IMG/VR virus record: IMGVR_UViG_3300027856_000157
Coordinates: 1-26,750 of that record
Origin: a virus
Length of the DNA stretch: 26,750 nt
Strand: one strand, 5' to 3'
Position numbers and translations under genes: made by a program. Below the pieces are notes generated by a model. The model had not been told where the DNA came from. It searched no databases and saw nothing but the letters and a program-made list of their open reading frames with translations. Positions 10,601 through 20,854 of this stretch are shown here, piece by piece (the first letter of the stretch is position 1; each line of letters starts with the position of its first letter).

Positions 10601-12838
10601 CGCCTTGGTAAAGATTACCCGGTGTTTGAATCTATCCAGAAAGAATACCAACAGTTTAACGATCGCATGATGGATTTTTACGAAGAGGCCGGAATGGTTA
10701 CACCTGAAGGCCGTAAAACCATGAAGTCAATGAATAAAGACTATGTGCCTTTCAACCGTATCCGTGATCAACTTGCTGGTGGTAAAGGTTCGGCTAGTGC
10801 CGGGTTCCAAAAACTTAAAGGTGGCACCGCTAACCTGAATGATATTTTAGTAAATATTCAAGACGGCATAACGGCAAACGTCCGATCAGCATTAAACAAC
10901 CGAGCCAAGCAAAGACTTTATCAATACATTTCAGGTCATAAAGACGGGGCAATTTTTGCAACCAAGATAGCGCCGGACTCTAAACCTGTTCAGGTTTACG
11001 CTGATGAAATGCAAGCTAAGATCAGTAAAGTGCTTGAGGCTAACGGAATTAAGATAGAAGGCGATCTTGATTTAGCCAGTAAAGAGCTGCTTACTTTCTG
11101 GCAACACGGTGTTGCGCCTCGCGTTAATGAGTCGGGCAATATCGTTGATTCAGTGATCATTAATGGCAAGCCTAAGTATTACGAAGTTCAAGATCCATTA
11201 CTTCAAGAAATGCTTATGTCAATGAACCCTGAAAGCTATAGCTCATTTATGAATGTGATGTTCGGTGTTAAAAACTTCTTTACCCGTACCATTACGCTAG
11301 GAATTGAGTTCACCTTGGCTAACCTGGTGCGTGATACGGTTGGCGCGACATTCCTTAGCAAGAATAACTTCAAGCCGTTTATCAGTTCGTTCCAGGGAAT
11401 GTATTCGTTTTTAGCTAAAGACAAATATTACCAGGACTTTATTCGCTCAGGCGGTGGTCACTCTAGCCGCCTTGAAGGTGCTACTCGTGACAGCCAGGCA
11501 AGACGAAGAGTCAAGCTTGATGAATTTGGCGTTATGACTGGGCCAGAAAGGTTGCTAAGCAGTATTGATAATTTAGCTAGTGCTTTTGAATATGGCACTC
11601 GCATTGGTGAATACAGACTTGCCAAGAAAAACATGAAGTCTGATATGGACGCTGGTTTTGATGCGAGAGAGATCTCCACTGACTTTAGTGTTCTTGGTGC
11701 TAACAGGTTCCTGACTGGCTTCATTCGCACAGTTCCGTTCCTAAACGCGATGGTTCAATCACTGGATCGTGTATTTAGAGAAGCGGCAGTAAGCAAGCGT
11801 TATGACGGGAACCCTACGGCTATGGCTATGAAGGCGTTTCTTGGTATTACGGTGCCGACTCTGATCCTTTATTTGGTGAATAAAGATGACGAAGATTACA
11901 AAGCAATACCGGATTACGAAAAAAGAACTAACTGGCATATTAAAATCGGTGACGGTCAGTTCGTTAAAATTCCTCGTCCTTATGATGTTGGTTTTGTTTA
12001 TGCAACGATGTTTGAGTTATTTGCAAAGTATGTAGAGGATGACAAGGGCAAAGAGTTTGCTGATGGGATGTTGTGGACCATGACGCAGATGTACGGAATT
12101 GATGGCACTCCGGCCATGATGACAGGATGGTGGGACCTGGTTAGAAATGAGAAGTGGACAGGTGCACCAGTTGTTCCGCAATCACTTTCTGATGTTGAGG
12201 CTCCTGAACAGTACACCTCAAACACAAGTGAAACCTTTGTTCGTATGGGCGAAGCTTTAGGCATAAGCCCTATCAAGGCTGAGCACATGTTTAAGGCGTA
12301 CACTGGCTATCTTGGTGGGTACTTAATGGCTGGCACTGATCACCTTCTTTGGGATGAATCCAAGTTTGGAGAGAAGCCAGATCGTAAGTTGTCGGAAAAT
12401 GTATTTTTACGCCGCTTCCTTACTCCTGATGTTCGCCCGGCAACAGCAAACATGGAGAAGTTTTTCAACCTTAAAGAGCAGTCTGATAAAATAGTTTCAA
12501 CCTTCAAGCAAACCGTTGACGTTCGCAGACAAATAAAAGGTCAGAGCGGTACTGGTAAGTTTAAGGATGACAAGTTTTACGGGTTGTCAGGCAAAGAGAA
12601 AGAAGTTCTATTTGGCCTGAATGATTCTATGAATCAGTTAATTAAGCTAATGTATGGTAAGGAAGGGATTAAAACCGCTGAGCTGAAAATTAAATATGAT
12701 AAAAATTTGTCTGGCGCTGAAAAGCGTGAACAAATGGATAAGCTATGGCTTGCCCGTAATAATGCGTTTAATAAATACTATCAACAAGCTAATCAGGCTC
12801 TACAAAAAGCCAGACGAGAAGCTAAACAGGAGAAATAA
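4631..12838 (+). CDS. Giant polyvalent ejection protein: ParB-like, adenine methylase, HExxH protease and LPD38-type domains
   Basis: The gene starts at GTG with AGGAGAG five bases upstream and encodes 2735 residues at the P22 gp16 position. Visible parts: an N-terminal virion-type head (1-45); a Gly/Ala-rich, partly hydrophobic section ending near 382; a ParB-like domain (about 500-690) with GRHR at 547-550; charged helical linkers; a polyvalent-protein helper domain near 1125-1195; a Rossmann methyltransferase (about 1457-1625) with FFPTPTP at 1457, EPSAGKGN at 1482 and the catalytic NPPF at 1542-1545; a zincin-like motif HEMAH at 1736-1740 with EGFAEF ending just after E1786; a long helical region; and an LPD38-like region (about 2195-2600) with one apolar helix (2403-2419). 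Such polyvalent proteins are known to be packaged and ejected to counter host defence. Packaging here is inferred from family and position. Confidence 0.85.
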   Translation: MSEFIQSFREQNPQYNDMADDQLVTALHGKYYSDIPIEQFNQKIGFQVAPIDPAVSDPVAEQEPGLIAQPRPQDPVSPMTGYGASSDIPQQQPVDGFTGAAMKAPEEQSMLELVSGKLKNWGAGAGERAGDVGGALLQTIETVGSGLEQKFPMGGLVWEDGDIIPSVLGPEEWAKREAKPILTKGADVLKGIDLGYQEKVGWEDVKKSFSEGGPLSGSAYADVLEYGLEQGVKSVPDMVAAITALPAYIFARSGEIGEQRAQNKGKESAELEDVLEAAPFAVAASLLERIGAKGITQAGKEEIGKEILKAGIKESTKRVAAAGGKAMTKEAATEAIQEGMIEYVGERYGTDVAMDWKEALDQAAAGAVAGGVFGGTGGGVMATANEINYSPEKVIAKQLEKDIEATEVVGTEQAAIEALSPEQAQIQKEQKPQQKQELKAKEGEAKPDPVKPVAKQEFEIDKAQTTEQDPVALELPEEKPVKQQIVGKEVVEAPIEEIAISEDVPQFKEGANVKGVVEPLGGKFERTGVAPVQIWVREDGRKEVISGRHRLDLAERSGEKTIPAQYHYESEGFGADQAAVLDAMLNIREGQGKVKDYVDFIKATKPRKQEAESQGILARQTGKRAFTIATEGSDALITSHRNDQLTDEAATRIAEAAPRNEKLQAVGIKAIQEGKTIAVAENMVKAVKTMTDETAQQSGDLFGFDDSAMVEAENLAKSAVKKQNEIQKTLSAVQGAAKRPELAAKEGVDVKNPEAIKARIAELKEQKRDWQNWHTNPKLTQELKAQPEKAVTDEKPAITEEAKAPAPEPAAQPSPKEKDNFTNWNAKDSEGGPAEQSFTRGEYAKAVKSDKDKTFFDGGEIEGISQAKQQAKIKGVWHDFGSIVKADKPEPIKKPTKPMSEVVESVSKKKGKGLTDADKVPAPKADYATEPAQAYRSFMESVANQTATVAEIKADAESLVKNKDAIIAKMSDRKFTKAMLQQITHSPRSDLKKPQMVKSAYESMLAAHVMGDATFTIFGGSKTYEQQMMEKINKQTQADVDAAYEKQREYRAQMKQRKDEFVKSLSNPETLPEFKEFIRVRGKDKMSPEQLAAYDELVAESMAEVKPEVVKAEAEAVTTERAQTKHTKTGADLFVVKMVGRVPKEQFRELSGKAKQLGGYYSSYSKGDAIPGFQFKTVEAADQFEQLLSGKDVDKSDFAEAKAEVKQSKNADKLLNMAEKMEAKATEEINRPRQANTSRRASMAANATERAEKQLALAKTVRNIAVKLQEGELKHLGQMSQVTQLEELISIQNRAIPNDLYEKGSFDGYTINRPLKEGVTVEDYIANVKYPSIEVYGSNMKSLSEKLSGKKGFMRISKEILKLPSAKARGDWKVLNDVQYKKLYEAVKIGFINEYDIGGFAVDRHKTIGRLEKLGITTEEQLRAAIRELDSLRVAKRQEDPVKKLERDLVGKKIEGFFPTPTPLVDQMIDYADIKPGHEVLEPSAGKGNIADQIMVSAPDASLDVVEYNTSLASLLEVKGYNVVGNDFLEYSGKQYDRIVMNPPFENFQDIDHVKHAYDLLKPGGKLVAIMGAGVKNSRKKAVEFREWIDDAGSYIEDLPEGSFKGSERSTGVNTVMVTIEKNDTNTLNYKKDDSKVSPTPEDGERVFHAPGHNFIGMFRSTGIPERRDFVTIEGRKLKIPDAPQRIEPIMSKLIKITGRRIYFGKIKGKSAEGFYRPNVGEIRTRRKNDVEVLAHEMAHYLDVYSNITLPNFQKLYKDPKYSSEVAALSYTDADPKIEKIEGFAEFVRLWLTNANEAQLRAPKFYDAFTNELARDRKLLNPMRDMQDLMHKFYFQGPDKLGQALIGQDVSFKQRFNEWAYRRDSRIRQQVIDRFHAARKVEQELTRKIGTVEESAWKQFRIANGGAEGISDYILNYGTVQFDEKGDLKRSGKSLHEVMEPVKTIKLKTEHEGDQKIDLLMRYFAGRRALELHRQKRENLIPKETAKEWARLGKDYPVFESIQKEYQQFNDRMMDFYEEAGMVTPEGRKTMKSMNKDYVPFNRIRDQLAGGKGSASAGFQKLKGGTANLNDILVNIQDGITANVRSALNNRAKQRLYQYISGHKDGAIFATKIAPDSKPVQVYADEMQAKISKVLEANGIKIEGDLDLASKELLTFWQHGVAPRVNESGNIVDSVIINGKPKYYEVQDPLLQEMLMSMNPESYSSFMNVMFGVKNFFTRTITLGIEFTLANLVRDTVGATFLSKNNFKPFISSFQGMYSFLAKDKYYQDFIRSGGGHSSRLEGATRDSQARRRVKLDEFGVMTGPERLLSSIDNLASAFEYGTRIGEYRLAKKNMKSDMDAGFDAREISTDFSVLGANRFLTGFIRTVPFLNAMVQSLDRVFREAAVSKRYDGNPTAMAMKAFLGITVPTLILYLVNKDDEDYKAIPDYEKRTNWHIKIGDGQFVKIPRPYDVGFVYATMFELFAKYVEDDKGKEFADGMLWTMTQMYGIDGTPAMMTGWWDLVRNEKWTGAPVVPQSLSDVEAPEQYTSNTSETFVRMGEALGISPIKAEHMFKAYTGYLGGYLMAGTDHLLWDESKFGEKPDRKLSENVFLRRFLTPDVRPATANMEKFFNLKEQSDKIVSTFKQTVDVRRQIKGQSGTGKFKDDKFYGLSGKEKEVLFGLNDSMNQLIKLMYGKEGIKTAELKIKYDKNLSGAEKREQMDKLWLARNNAFNKYYQQANQALQKARREAKQEK

Positions 12839-17380: not shown

Positions 17381-17743
17381 TTAGTGGTTACAGCGACAAT
17401 CATCACAAAGAGGACGGCCGCAAACAAATTGCCCGGCGTGACTAAATCCATGAGTTGCGACTTTTCCACAACTGCATTTTTCTTGGTGCTTCTCACACTG
17501 TCCGTTATCAAGGATCTTGGTAGAGCCACATTCACCCTGCCAAGGGGCGCAATAAGTACAAGCTGGCCCTGGCATCTTGTGATCTTGCTTTTGCTGCGTT
17601 AACTCTTCAGTGATGATCTTCAACTGCTTCTTTCGGATAAGTCCGGCGAACTCAATTGAATAACCAACCTTGCCAAGCACCATTGCAAAGGCGGCGTTAA
17701 AGCCTTGCTGGTAGCCTTTTTTAAAGCCTCTTGAATAACTCAT
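17381..17743 (-). CDS. Cysteine-rich small protein, probable zinc binder
   Basis: A 120-residue protein of no named family. The first 50 residues are helical and basic (YSRGFKKGYQQGFNAAFAMVL). The second half carries about a dozen Cys and His residues in close pairs: CTYCAPWQGEC, CEKHQEKCSCG, HGFSHAG, CGRPLCDDCRCNH. This spacing suggests one or two treble-clef or ring-like zinc sites. Its ATG overlaps the stop of the upstream DUF6475 gene (ATGA), so the two are coupled. Its place among replication genes suggests a nucleic-acid or protein adaptor, but I cannot assign a role. Confidence 0.65.
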   Translation of the reverse strand: MSYSRGFKKGYQQGFNAAFAMVLGKVGYSIEFAGLIRKKQLKIITEELTQQKQDHKMPGPACTYCAPWQGECGSTKILDNGQCEKHQEKCSCGKVATHGFSHAGQFVCGRPLCDDCRCNH

Positions 17744-18333
17744 TTTTGTTCAATCCCTTTTCTGTTTCGGTATTCGTTCAAACCATCCATCAAAGACTTA
17801 ACGCCTTGCTTAGATTCGGCCTTGTGTTCTGATAGCTCAATTAAACCAGGTAACTTACTTGGCAAAGCTTCCAAAGGTGTGCGCTCGTAGCAATCGTAAG
17901 AGCTAACGAACTCTTTCTTCTTCCAAACAAGTTGATCATAGGTACACATGCAAAGCGCTCGCCATCCACCGATAGCTTTAACAGCCGCAATAGCTTGCTT
18001 GTCTTCCAGCTCAAGAGTGCCATAGCTACCAATGCGGCTAATCTCTCTCTCAATGCAAGCCCAGGCCATTTCTGCGCGGTCTTCAACAAGTTGCTGCTGC
18101 TCCTTAACTGAACCGCTGATGTTACGAATAAGATCCGCTGGCTTAGGGAAGAAGGTCCCGGCCTGATCAGTGTTCTTAATGTGCATCGACATTGCGCCAG
18201 AAACCTGCTCAATGCTTAGGTCCTCAAGTGCGTTAAAGTAAATTCTTAACAAAGGCTTAGTGATCTCCTTGCCGTAAAGTTCGCCAGCACCAAGCATAAG
18301 CTCGTGGAAGCTGTTCTTATCTGATTCTTGCAT
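17740..18333 (-). CDS. DUF6475-type replication-module protein (helicase-loader position)
   Basis: I placed the start at the ATG at 18333, which overlaps the upstream stop (TAATG) and has GGGAG seven bases before it; the TTG six bases earlier has poor spacing. The protein has 197 residues. The pattern GAGELYGKEITKPLLRIYFNALEDLSIEQVSGAMSMHI, then GTFFPKPADLIRNI and IGGWRALC, fits the DUF6475 family seen directly downstream of O-like initiators in phages. By position it matches lambda P, which recruits the host DnaB helicase, but I see no sequence link to P. A helicase-loading or accessory replication role is inference from context. Confidence 0.7.
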   Translation of the reverse strand: MQESDKNSFHELMLGAGELYGKEITKPLLRIYFNALEDLSIEQVSGAMSMHIKNTDQAGTFFPKPADLIRNISGSVKEQQQLVEDRAEMAWACIEREISRIGSYGTLELEDKQAIAAVKAIGGWRALCMCTYDQLVWKKKEFVSSYDCYERTPLEALPSKLPGLIELSEHKAESKQGVKSLMDGLNEYRNRKGIEQK

Positions 18334-19136
18334 TACCAATCTCCCATTGTGTTATTAATGTTTTTCTGAGTAACCTGGCTAAACTGCTGCTGTTCAGGTT
18401 GAACGTTATCGGCAAAGAAGCTTTCAAGCTTTTCCCCGGTGCGACAAATTAGCTCAATGTCGTTAAAAGGTTTCTGTCTATCGTTTTGCCCCATTGAAAA
18501 CGGATCATTACGACAACCATCAATAGCCTGTTTGATCTGATCAACCGTATAGCCTTCTTTCAACCTGGCCTTGATAGCTTTATCGCGTTTAGCGGTTAGC
18601 TTGCTGGTAGAAAGATTTTTACCCATAACGTCACACCAGTATGTGAACAAGTCGAAAGCAGGGTTAGCTTTAGCTGACGGAGTAGTTATTACTTCTTTAC
18701 TATCTACTCTACTCTTATCTACTCTACTCTTATCTAGTCCCTTTTCTGTCACTGGTTTTGTCACACTTTTTTTGTGACATTGTTGTGAGTTGTCGCGTGA
18801 CTTGCGCTTTCTCTCTGCATCGGAGGCTCGTTTCTTGGCTCCTTTGCCTAAGTGCCTTTCAAAGTTAGGAACGCAAAAACCGGACTCTGTTTTATCAAGC
18901 CAGCCAACTGTCACTAAAGCTTCCGTTAAACCTGTGACACCTGTCAGCCTATCAAGCAGGACTTTTGTCACAAGTGGAGCGTGACCATTTTCGGAATTAG
19001 AGTCGAACCACGACCAGACTCTTATCATTTTCCCGGTGATAGTGTCTGGATCTTCAATATCAAGAAGGGCGGCAAGCTCTAAAATTTCCGGCTTGTCTGG
19101 CGTTCCCTTTTCGATTTTTATCCAGAAGTCAGCCAT
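18333..19136 (-). CDS. O-like phage replication initiator
   Basis: A 267-residue protein with two domains joined by a polar linker. The N-terminal 95 residues (FWIKIEKGTPDKPEILELAALLDI, then ITGKMIRVWSWFDSNSENGHA, then VGWLDKTESGFCVPNFERH) form a winged-helix-like DNA-binding domain found in phage replication proteins. The linker (about 96-155) is Lys/Ser-rich and holds the repeated KSRVD KSRVD. The C-terminal domain (155-240) is helical. It starts inside the stop of the Cro-like gene (TAATG) and is followed by the DUF6475 gene, the same order as cro-O-P in lambdoid phages without cII. The gene body contains an unusual cluster of TGTCAC words that may be the origin to which the protein binds, as in lambda O. 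Confidence 0.75.
   Translation of the reverse strand: MADFWIKIEKGTPDKPEILELAALLDIEDPDTITGKMIRVWSWFDSNSENGHAPLVTKVLLDRLTGVTGLTEALVTVGWLDKTESGFCVPNFERHLGKGAKKRASDAERKRKSRDNSQQCHKKSVTKPVTEKGLDKSRVDKSRVDSKEVITTPSAKANPAFDLFTYWCDVMGKNLSTSKLTAKRDKAIKARLKEGYTVDQIKQAIDGCRNDPFSMGQNDRQKPFNDIELICRTGEKLESFFADNVQPEQQQFSQVTQKNINNTMGDW
18701..18730. repeat. 15-bp perfect tandem repeat in the O-like gene
   Basis: TATCTACTCTACTCT occurs twice in tandem (18701-18715 and 18716-18730), followed by a partial third copy (TATCTA). It encodes the doubled KSRVD of the linker. It lies directly beside the TGTCAC cluster and next to an AT-rich stretch (18681-18700), so it may be part of an origin; it may also simply be a linker repeat. 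Confidence 0.75.
18747..18985. other. Candidate replication origin: cluster of TGTCAC/GTGACA words
   Basis: Eight GTCAC or GTGAC words lie within about 240 bp at 18748, 18760, 18774 (inverted), 18797 (inverted), 18910, 18934 (inverted), 18967 and 18981 (inverted). Six of them extend to the hexamer TGTCAC. Two face each other as a perfect hairpin-like pair, GTCACA (18760-18765) and TGTGAC (18773-18778). They fall in different codon phases of the O-like gene (V-T, C-H, K-S-R, G-H), so repeated amino acids alone do not explain them. Lambda O binds iterons inside its own gene, so this is a reasonable origin candidate; no binding is shown. Confidence 0.45.
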
Positions 19137-19339
19137 TACTCGCCCTCGCTAAGAGCGATAAACTCACTGACTTCCATATCTAAAGCTTTGGATAGCTTTG
19201 TTAGGGTTTCAGGATTTACGCGCTTTTGGTTCTGCATTGCGTAAAGTCTTGCGCGACTAACGCCAAGCTTTTCAGCAAACTCACCTTTCTTAATGCCCTT
19301 TTTAGCCAGGGCGATGTTTAAAGACTTTTTGATATTCAT
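19136..19339 (-). CDS. Cro/XRE-type HTH regulator, first gene of the replication operon
   Basis: A 67-residue protein that is almost entirely a helix-turn-helix of the XRE/Cro-CI class: EFAEKLGVSRARLYAMQNQ at about residues 20-38, with family features RVNPETLTKLSKALDMEVSEF following. There is no room for a separate cleavage or dimerisation domain, so it resembles Cro more than a full CI repressor. GAGAGG precedes the ATG. It is the promoter-proximal gene of the minus operon and its stop overlaps the O-like start. It probably binds the GTGTTGA words in the adjacent divergent control region and represses one or both early promoters; this target is inferred. Confidence 0.85.
   Translation of the reverse strand: MNIKKSLNIALAKKGIKKGEFAEKLGVSRARLYAMQNQKRVNPETLTKLSKALDMEVSEFIALSEGE
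19150..19157 (-). promoter_or_regulatory. Possible boxA antitermination element
   Basis: On the minus strand the sequence CGCTCTTA is identical to lambda nut boxA. It sits at the 3' end of the Cro-like gene, just ahead of the O-like gene, where lambda has nutR. It is also part of a small inverted repeat (TCGCT/AGCGA, 19146-19158). No convincing boxB hairpin follows, and no N-like protein was recognised, so the support is positional only. Confidence 0.25.
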
Positions 19340-19400: not shown

Positions 19401-19429
19401 TTGACATTAATTTTTGTCACTGCTAAAGT
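19401..19429 (+). promoter_or_regulatory. Early promoter for the recombination operon (pL-like)
   Basis: A perfect -35 TTGACA (19401-19406), a 17-base spacer and -10 TAAAGT (19424-19429), ending 25 bases before the first ATG of the + operon, which has a GGAGG ribosome site. A GTGTTGA word overlaps the -35 box. Confidence 0.7.
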
Positions 19430-19647: not shown

Positions 19648-20106
19648 ATGGATATTAAAAACAAAGGTGATTTAATCCAGGCGTTCGTTAATAAGTCTGA
19701 AGAAGTTCAGCGCTTAAATGATCAGCTTGGCGCGGCAGACTCACAACTTAGTGATCTGTATGAAGCTATCGCAACAGATGAAAATCTGATGGAACTTGTT
19801 CATGCTGGTGGTATTGCTACGGCTGGCGGTGAGCTAATCATTTTCAATAACAGCAGTGAAGAGCTTGTTATCTGCAAGTGCATTTCAAGTTATACCATTA
19901 AAGACGAGCTCAGCGCTGAACAGCTTGGTATCGTCAATGGTTACAAGACTGTTAGTGATGCTTGGTTTAATGCCGCTAAGAAAGAGCTTGAGTATTCAGA
20001 AACAACACTTGAGAAGCTTCTTGATAAAGTCGGCAAAGAAGGTTGCAAGTTATCTGAAGAGCAACTTGAAACACTTACTAAAGCTGAGGGTCGTGGCAAT
20101 GAGTAA
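19648..20106 (+). CDS. Hypothetical early protein with coiled-coil ends
   Basis: I chose the ATG at 19648 because GAAGG lies eight bases upstream; an in-frame GTG at 19639 overlaps that ribosome site. The protein has 152 residues. It begins with a helical stretch (DLIQAFVNKSEEVQRLNDQLGAADSQL), has a central beta-like part (GGIATAGGELIIFNN, SEELVICKCISSYTI), and ends with a charged helix. No family is recognised. It follows the small membrane protein by one base and overlaps the Erf gene by eight bases, so it is co-expressed with the recombination genes. Confidence 0.6.
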   Translation: MDIKNKGDLIQAFVNKSEEVQRLNDQLGAADSQLSDLYEAIATDENLMELVHAGGIATAGGELIIFNNSSEELVICKCISSYTIKDELSAEQLGIVNGYKTVSDAWFNAAKKELEYSETTLEKLLDKVGKEGCKLSEEQLETLTKAEGRGNE

Positions 20107-20854
20107 CGGCGAATTAGTTACAAGTGATCAGCAATCATCACTTCCGGTTATGGCACAGCCGCACATGCGCCTAATTGAAATTGCAGTGAATAACGGCGCT
20201 GACATTACTCAGCTTGAAAAGCTTATGGATCTTCAAGAGCGCTATGAAGCAAACCAGGCTAAGAAAGAGTTCAACGCTGCAATGTCTAAGTTTCAGGCAA
20301 TGCTTCCGGTAATTGAAAAGCTTGGCATTGTTGATTACACAACTTCAAAAGGTCGCACGTTCTACCAGTACGCCAAGATTGAAGATATTGCTAAGGCAAT
20401 TCAGCCAGCGTTAAAAGAAACAGGCCTGTCTTACCGCTTCACGCAAAGCCAGGATAACGGAATTATCACCGTTCGCTGTATCGTTACGCACCAGAGCGGC
20501 CACTCAGAATACAGTGAGTTGGTATCTTCCCCTGATATTAGCGGCGGCAAGGATCAGCTTAAAAGTATCGCTTCGGCAATTTCATACCTTCGCCGTTATA
20601 CATTGACTGGTATCTTGGGGATTGTTGTCGGTGGTGAAGACGATGACGGCGATTCTGTTCAGTACGATAACCAGGAACAGCAAAAGCCTGTTAACTGCTA
20701 CCCGGATGAAGAATTTAATAAAAACTTCCCGGCCTGGTCTAAAAAAATAACTGATGGTAAGCACACAGTTGACTCGCTACACCAATTCTTGACTAAGAAG
20801 AACATTATCCTTAGCCAAGACCAATACTCAAAATTACAACAAGTAGGAAAGTAG
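20099..20854 (+). CDS. erf: Erf-family single-strand annealing recombinase
   Basis: I chose the ATG at 20099, overlapping the upstream stop; a far upstream in-frame start at 19856 would overlap that gene by 250 bases. The protein has 251 residues. The ERF core is clear: KKEFNAAMSKFQAMLP, then GIVDYTTSKGRTFYQYAKIEDI, IQPALKETGLSYRF and IASAISYLRRYTLTGILGIV, followed by an acidic GGEDDDGD patch and a C-terminal helical domain. Erf of P22 binds single-stranded ends and anneals them, allowing circularisation of the injected genome. The adjacent exonuclease gene would produce the single-stranded tails, so the two form an annealase-exonuclease pair like lambda Bet and Exo. Confidence 0.92.
   Translation: MSNGELVTSDQQSSLPVMAQPHMRLIEIAVNNGADITQLEKLMDLQERYEANQAKKEFNAAMSKFQAMLPVIEKLGIVDYTTSKGRTFYQYAKIEDIAKAIQPALKETGLSYRFTQSQDNGIITVRCIVTHQSGHSEYSELVSSPDISGGKDQLKSIASAISYLRRYTLTGILGIVVGGEDDDGDSVQYDNQEQQKPVNCYPDEEFNKNFPAWSKKITDGKHTVDSLHQFLTKKNIILSQDQYSKLQQVGK

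Follow-up and report, generated by a model that had tools for sequence, protein, structure and literature searches.

A conserved palindrome inside YdaU-type initiator genes points to a candidate phage replication origin

Within the window, by which we mean the whole 26,750-nucleotide stretch analysed (positions 1 to 26,750 of IMG/VR virus record IMGVR_UViG_3300027856_000157), an operon headed by a Cro/C1-type HTH regulator carries a gene for a 267-residue protein and, next to it, a putative replication partner (Table 1). Residues 1-131 of the 267-residue protein matched phrog_2509, 'replication initiation protein', in a profile search (E = 5.2e-46), annotated relatives go by the names YdaU, DUF1376 or primosomal protein I, and in several family members a DnaC-like gene follows the initiator gene. 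In the window, the product of the following gene gave a DnaD_N match in Pfam that was weak and below the cut-off. The gene had been termed O-like in the initial annotation; unlike lambda O, its product had no match to the lambda O Pfam family, and what stands of that label is that the C-terminal half matched, less strongly, an 'O-like' PHROG (E = 1.8e-11). On these profile matches, we class the protein as an initiator of the YdaU/phrog_2509 type and not as a homologue of lambda O. Modelling of residues 1-126 with AlphaFold2 produced a winged helix that leads into a basic helix (residues 100-118), for which the best structural matches were winged-helix proteins, including CAP, ORC/Cdc6 and the plasmid initiator 4pta/5kbj, all of them weak (Z ~5). 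A Foldseek search of the model returned no match at E <= 0.001, and no solved homologue was found by sequence search. RepA_N-type plasmid initiators (PDB 4pta, 5kbj), a family known to have its origin within the rep gene, may share a winged-helix initiator fold with the protein, the structural match being weak (Z ~5); no sequence similarity to them was detected.

Table 1. Genes, coding segments and DNA elements at the initiator locus (window coordinates).
Feature	Position	Strand	Remarks
Cro/C1-type HTH regulator	19136..19339	-	Head of operon; HTH_26, E = 4.2e-10
Replication-initiator gene, YdaU/phrog_2509 type	18333..19136	-	267 aa; proposed origin in first half
N-terminal winged-helix domain code (residues 1-99)	18840..19136	-	AlphaFold2 pLDDT 81.9, pTM 0.68
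Basic helix code (residues 100-118)	18783..18839	-	Candidate specificity helix
Dyad I1, GTCAC-N9-GTGAC	18967..18985		Inside DNA-binding-domain code; codons frozen in 11 relatives
Isolated half-site Im	18934..18938		Val-Thr-Gly position; follows the arm type of the group
GTGAC word	18910..18914		Retained in closest relatives only; probably incidental Val-Thr
Isolated half-site	18797..18801		Lys-Ser-Arg; in 15/15 close relatives
Dyad I2, GTCAC-N9-GTGAC (TGTCACA-N7-TGTGACA)	18760..18778		In linker code
Extra GTGAC	18748..18752		Due to a 12-bp duplication found only in the window
Most AT-rich 60 bp of gene	18686..18745		70% AT; gene 57%
Purine-rich 5-bp-period array, GGACTA(GATAA GAGTA GAGTA)x2 GAT	18702..18740	-	Encodes DKSRVDKSRVD; proposed strand-opening or helicase-loading element
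Next operon gene, putative replication partner	17740..18339	-	DUF6475, Pfam E = 1.6e-9

Eight GTCAC/GTGAC words fall within 18747-18985 (starts at 18748, 18760, 18774, 18797, 18910, 18934, 18967 and 18981), six of them TGTCAC, as counted in the initial annotation. Across the whole window TGTCAC occurs 16 times against 11.0 +/- 3.5 expected, without global enrichment, so the excess is local. Synonymous-codon shuffling did not reproduce the cluster, giving means of 2.17 words when the protein was kept and codons were drawn at genome usage (p = 1.5e-4) and 3.57 when the gene's own codons were permuted (p = 6e-4), while the six TGTCAC compared with 0.82 (p = 5e-5) and 1.75 (p = 1e-4), respectively. 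The earlier expectation of about 0.1 per hexamer was too low, as given the protein TGTCAC is expected about once or twice, and the claim that the words occupy different codon phases applies to three of the eight, the other five being in phase 0 and encoding Val-Thr. The unit is also not the hexamer but the palindrome GTCAC-N9-GTGAC, into which four of the eight words pair as dyads I1 and I2, 207 bp apart; these are the two exact copies in the whole window, against 0.01 expected. The remaining words comprise two isolated conserved half-sites (18934 and 18797) and two probably incidental occurrences (18748 and 18910), and the 12-bp duplication at 18748 is absent from the near-identical phage 1.211.A and other relatives.

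The AT-rich stretch adjoins dyad I2 just outside the cluster as it was originally delimited, and within it lies the array, with 15-bp units at 18705-18719 and 18720-18734 and a self-match at a lag of five bases of 0.73, compared with 0.44 in synonymous shuffles. This property extends to the family, with a 5-bp self-match of 0.67 over 158 linkers against 0.46 in synonymous shuffles, and the DNA after I2 is on average AT-rich (0.57 vs 0.46 for the gene) and purine-rich (0.71 vs 0.57). Initiators with unrelated N-domains carry 7-bp AACCANN arrays in their linkers, encoding NQEPLTT heptads, and these were found in type B (L011, L012, L005 and L014), type C (L010 and L013) and PGA (L015) representatives. 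Since a DNA repeat whose period does not divide by three gives a peptide repeat of as many residues as the period has bases, the peptide repeat is a by-product, and for AACCANN, too, the DNA repeat looks to be primary over the peptide repeat.

Comparison with relatives places the dyads, half-sites and array under selection at the DNA level. Among 15 relatives with the window's N-domain, GTCAC was the most over-represented of all 5-mers (95 vs 36 in synonymous shuffles), with words overlapping it ranking next and 5-mers from the adjacent array after them. In 11 diverged relatives the codons covering words and array were identical while the rest of the N-domain drifts (Mann-Whitney, p = 4.7e-6 over the words and 1.3e-6 over the array), so that the words are retained over synonymous sites, as the initial reading would have it. 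The relatives are mosaic: among them, similar C-domains follow at least five unrelated types of N-domain, and the two parts meet in the linker. Phage 1.211.A and the window share an N-domain and have exactly two dyads each, both in the initiator gene, whereas nine sister phages that combine a similar C-domain with an unrelated N-domain have no GTCAC-N9-GTGAC in the entire genome; presence of the dyad therefore goes with the N-domain.

In the YdaU-like (phrog_2509) family, initiator genes contain the palindrome GTmACGC-N5-GCGTkAC, usually in two copies that start at nt ~150 and ~350-410 of the gene and lie mostly 189-247 bp (about 190-250) apart. The I1-I2 distance shows weak helical phasing, for which a period of 10.5 bp gave no sharper signal than one of 10 or 11 bp, and which is confounded by the codon period. 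The arms are of two types, GTAAC/GTTAC and GTCAC/GTGAC, and both arms and the isolated half-site switch together. From the compensatory arms GTCACGC-AACAA-GCGTGAC, seen in L004 and at I2 in L043, a dyad with the other arm was predicted beforehand for the wider family and then found, as GTAACGC-N5-GCGTTAC at both places, the DNA-binding-domain code and the linker. In 172 non-redundant genes, a set selected in part by the pattern itself, 78 had two AAC-type dyads, 36 had two CAC-type dyads and none had both types, with at least one complementary dyad in 163. A set of 47 genes found by protein gave at least one complementary dyad in 41, and its GTxAC-N9-GTyAC sites were complementary in 68 cases and non-complementary in four. 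Arm base 3 formed an A-T pair at 223 of 333 sites and a C-G pair at 99, with 11 mismatched. The palindrome is read in all three frames (codon phases 230/31/22), encoding peptides such as GNAPSVTK, MSRSERDK and VTPAALPK, and the half-site at 18797 corresponds to the left arm of a frame-shifted palindrome (S-R-S-E-R-D) in other family members. The half-site Im reads GTTAC in 44 of 45 genes of the GTAAC group and GTGAC or GTCAC in 10 of 10 of the GTCAC group.

Pattern scans located the palindrome to the same genes. Scanning for GTAACGC palindromes returned at least 120 stretches and, among the matches listed, 99 had a site in a family gene and all 49 paired sites were in family genes; for GTCACGC palindromes (at least 120 stretches), the corresponding figures among the matches listed were 45 and 22 of 23. 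A scrambled-palindrome control returned 68 stretches, none in family genes and none paired. Most family phage records hold one to three copies. The exceptional paired locus, L330 (13579-13660), has three GTCACGC palindromes at 25-bp spacing with half-sites ~12 bp apart, followed by an ACAAG 5-bp array, on an 18.3-kb fragment in which no family gene was detected; by its sequence, this combination apparently lies outside an initiator gene and may be the same candidate origin in free-standing form. At L312:2095 and L340:7956, a palindrome lies amid at least ten further GTCACG half-sites, outside genes recognised by the family profile. Rac 442/2 and 673R7 each have a third palindrome, immediately upstream of ydaU (L021, upstream of 1201; L023, upstream of 2001). 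The genome-collection scan with the patterns used found no relative, and plasmid records held two family members only, neither telling which gene drives replication.

The protein positions that best separated the two arm groups were residues 110 and 106 of the basic helix, in an analysis that left out residue 52 because it is encoded by the palindrome itself. Residue 110 is V or Q in one group and K or Q in the other, and residue 106 is T or G as opposed to A, D, S or G. On supported branches of the tree the arm group switches four times or more, and after correction for the tree the coupling ran in the same direction in 3.9 (residue 110) and 2.8 (residue 106) of four independent pairs and in the opposite direction in none, pairs too few for significance.

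We favour, at a probability of about 0.75, the reading that the cluster is the initiator-binding part of a phage replication origin situated inside the initiator's own gene, in which the dyads would be bound and the adjacent array opened. The N-terminal winged helix and basic helix of the YdaU-like protein would bind I1 and I2 as a dimer, the single half-sites between them would also be occupied by the initiator, and dimers on the two dyads could loop the ~200 bp between them. The bound complex would be expected to destabilise the adjacent AT-rich, purine-skewed array of 5-bp period, by analogy with lambda, and helicase may then be loaded at the array by way of the C-terminal domain and the partner gene downstream, as with lambda O and P. 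In lambda, the iterons are inverted repeats situated mid-gene in O, an AT-rich tract adjoins them, and unwinding needs no more than two iterons and that tract (PMC7466680). The locus resembles lambda ori in carrying its putative origin elements, here recognised as sequence elements, within the initiator gene, in having inverted repeats as sites (here dyads with covarying arms and predicted binding) and in the AT-rich stretch adjoining them. It differs in arm sequence, in the 5-bp period of the array, in having two dyads ~200 bp apart instead of close tandem iterons, and in the position of one dyad inside the DNA-binding-domain code. The initial annotation's comparison to lambda ori is supported by the inverted-repeat sites inside the initiator gene and the AT-rich stretch alongside, from which we infer origin activity.

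The dyads could instead be operators, at which the initiator or another phage regulator binds the gene for transcription control while the origin lies elsewhere. Palindromic sites are typical of operators, the third copy in Rac 442/2 and its relative 673R7 sits just upstream of the start codon, where autoregulation is possible, and a conserved intragenic operator would give most of the same features, such that sequence alone cannot separate it from an origin. The sites nevertheless lie deep in the gene, the array beside I2 is AT-rich and itself under DNA-level constraint, and the gene is an initiator by family, leading us to regard a purely regulatory role as improbable; autoregulation could coexist with origin function. 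An action of the inverted repeats in mRNA, as stem-loops tuning translation or decay, is less probable again: the AAC-type palindrome would fold as a 7-bp stem with a 5-nt loop, but unpaired half-sites are conserved as well and follow the arm type of the group, the arm base correlates with basic-helix residues, and no G-U occurs among the position-3 pairs.

Mosaic relatives with junctions in the linker would also suit a recombination or module-exchange site, a short conserved DNA favouring swaps of initiator modules. Exchange sites should be shared, however, and the palindrome occurs with a single N-domain type and is missing from the mosaic sisters; the covariation of its arms with the protein would also be left unexplained, and we give this explanation very little weight. 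Least credible, to the point of being negligible, is constraint on the protein only, with repeated Val-Thr and a charged linker conserved as amino acids. Five of the eight words do encode Val-Thr, but synonymous shuffles and codon freezing refute this as the sole cause, one palindrome encodes different peptides in three frames, and the word at 18934 is retained, shifted by 1 nt, in L045 and L047-L052 while Gly-Val-Thr becomes Met-Ser-Gln. Chance or amino-acid repetition alone is ruled out by the same shuffles, codon freezing and three-frame palindrome.

Proteins of the same YdaU/phrog_2509 family occur in Rac 442/2 and in phages ZX5 and TL-2011b. In Rac 442/2, ZX5 and others the palindrome has GTAAC arms, in contrast to the GTCAC version and Phg_2220_C-like C-domain of the window's lineage. 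The oriJ of the Escherichia coli K-12 Rac prophage is an active origin (PMC3945230). It is similar in that its prophage also has a ydaU gene, with an encoded C-domain like the one in Rac 442/2 YdaU, but K-12 ydaU has another N-domain and TGTTCAAAC repeats of its own. The proposal that K-12 oriJ is the GTmACGC palindrome was rejected, as the K-12 ydaU sequence has a different N-domain and lacks the palindrome, and oriJ consequently gives no direct support to the origin reading. The linker of K-12 ydaU (L426:5120-5977) contains the TGTTCAAAC repeats together with inverted TGTTTGAACA, which are candidate sites of oriJ. Our literature search found no paper on ydaU or DUF1376 origins and no description of the palindrome site, and the terms iteron and inverted repeat are absent from a paper on Stx-phage replication types (PMC8044961).

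Should the origin reading be true, the origins of phages with this initiator type would become predictable directly from sequence; to our knowledge, origins are unmapped in most phages. The sequence signature and its two-letter specificity switch would place a candidate origin within ~300 bp across a large phage family, and odd linker repeats such as DKSRVDKSRVD, EEKRREEK and NQEPLTTNQEP would be explained as by-products of DNA elements. Coevolution of origin and initiator also becomes directly testable, at two positions of the protein and one base pair of each half-site. More tentatively, and with somewhat less than even confidence in the whole, we propose that residues 106 and 110 set base 3 of the palindrome (GTAAC or GTCAC), that residues and base have changed together four times or more, that YdaU-type origins may be predicted from the initiator gene alone, and that sub-codon arrays (5-bp here, 7-bp AACCANN) could be a general second origin element, common in design to unrelated initiators.

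Further observations were made elsewhere in the window. One TGTCAC (19415-19420) lies in the region of divergent promoters that separates the HTH gene from the rightward operon. At 12696-12838, a 2735-residue ORF shares 143 bases with the 890-residue ORF that follows it in another frame. The start of the Erf gene contains GTAACGGCGAATTAGTTAC (20103-20121), which is also present in X14, 1.184.A, 41E34.2 and 24E30.2 regardless of initiator type and is probably conserved coding sequence.
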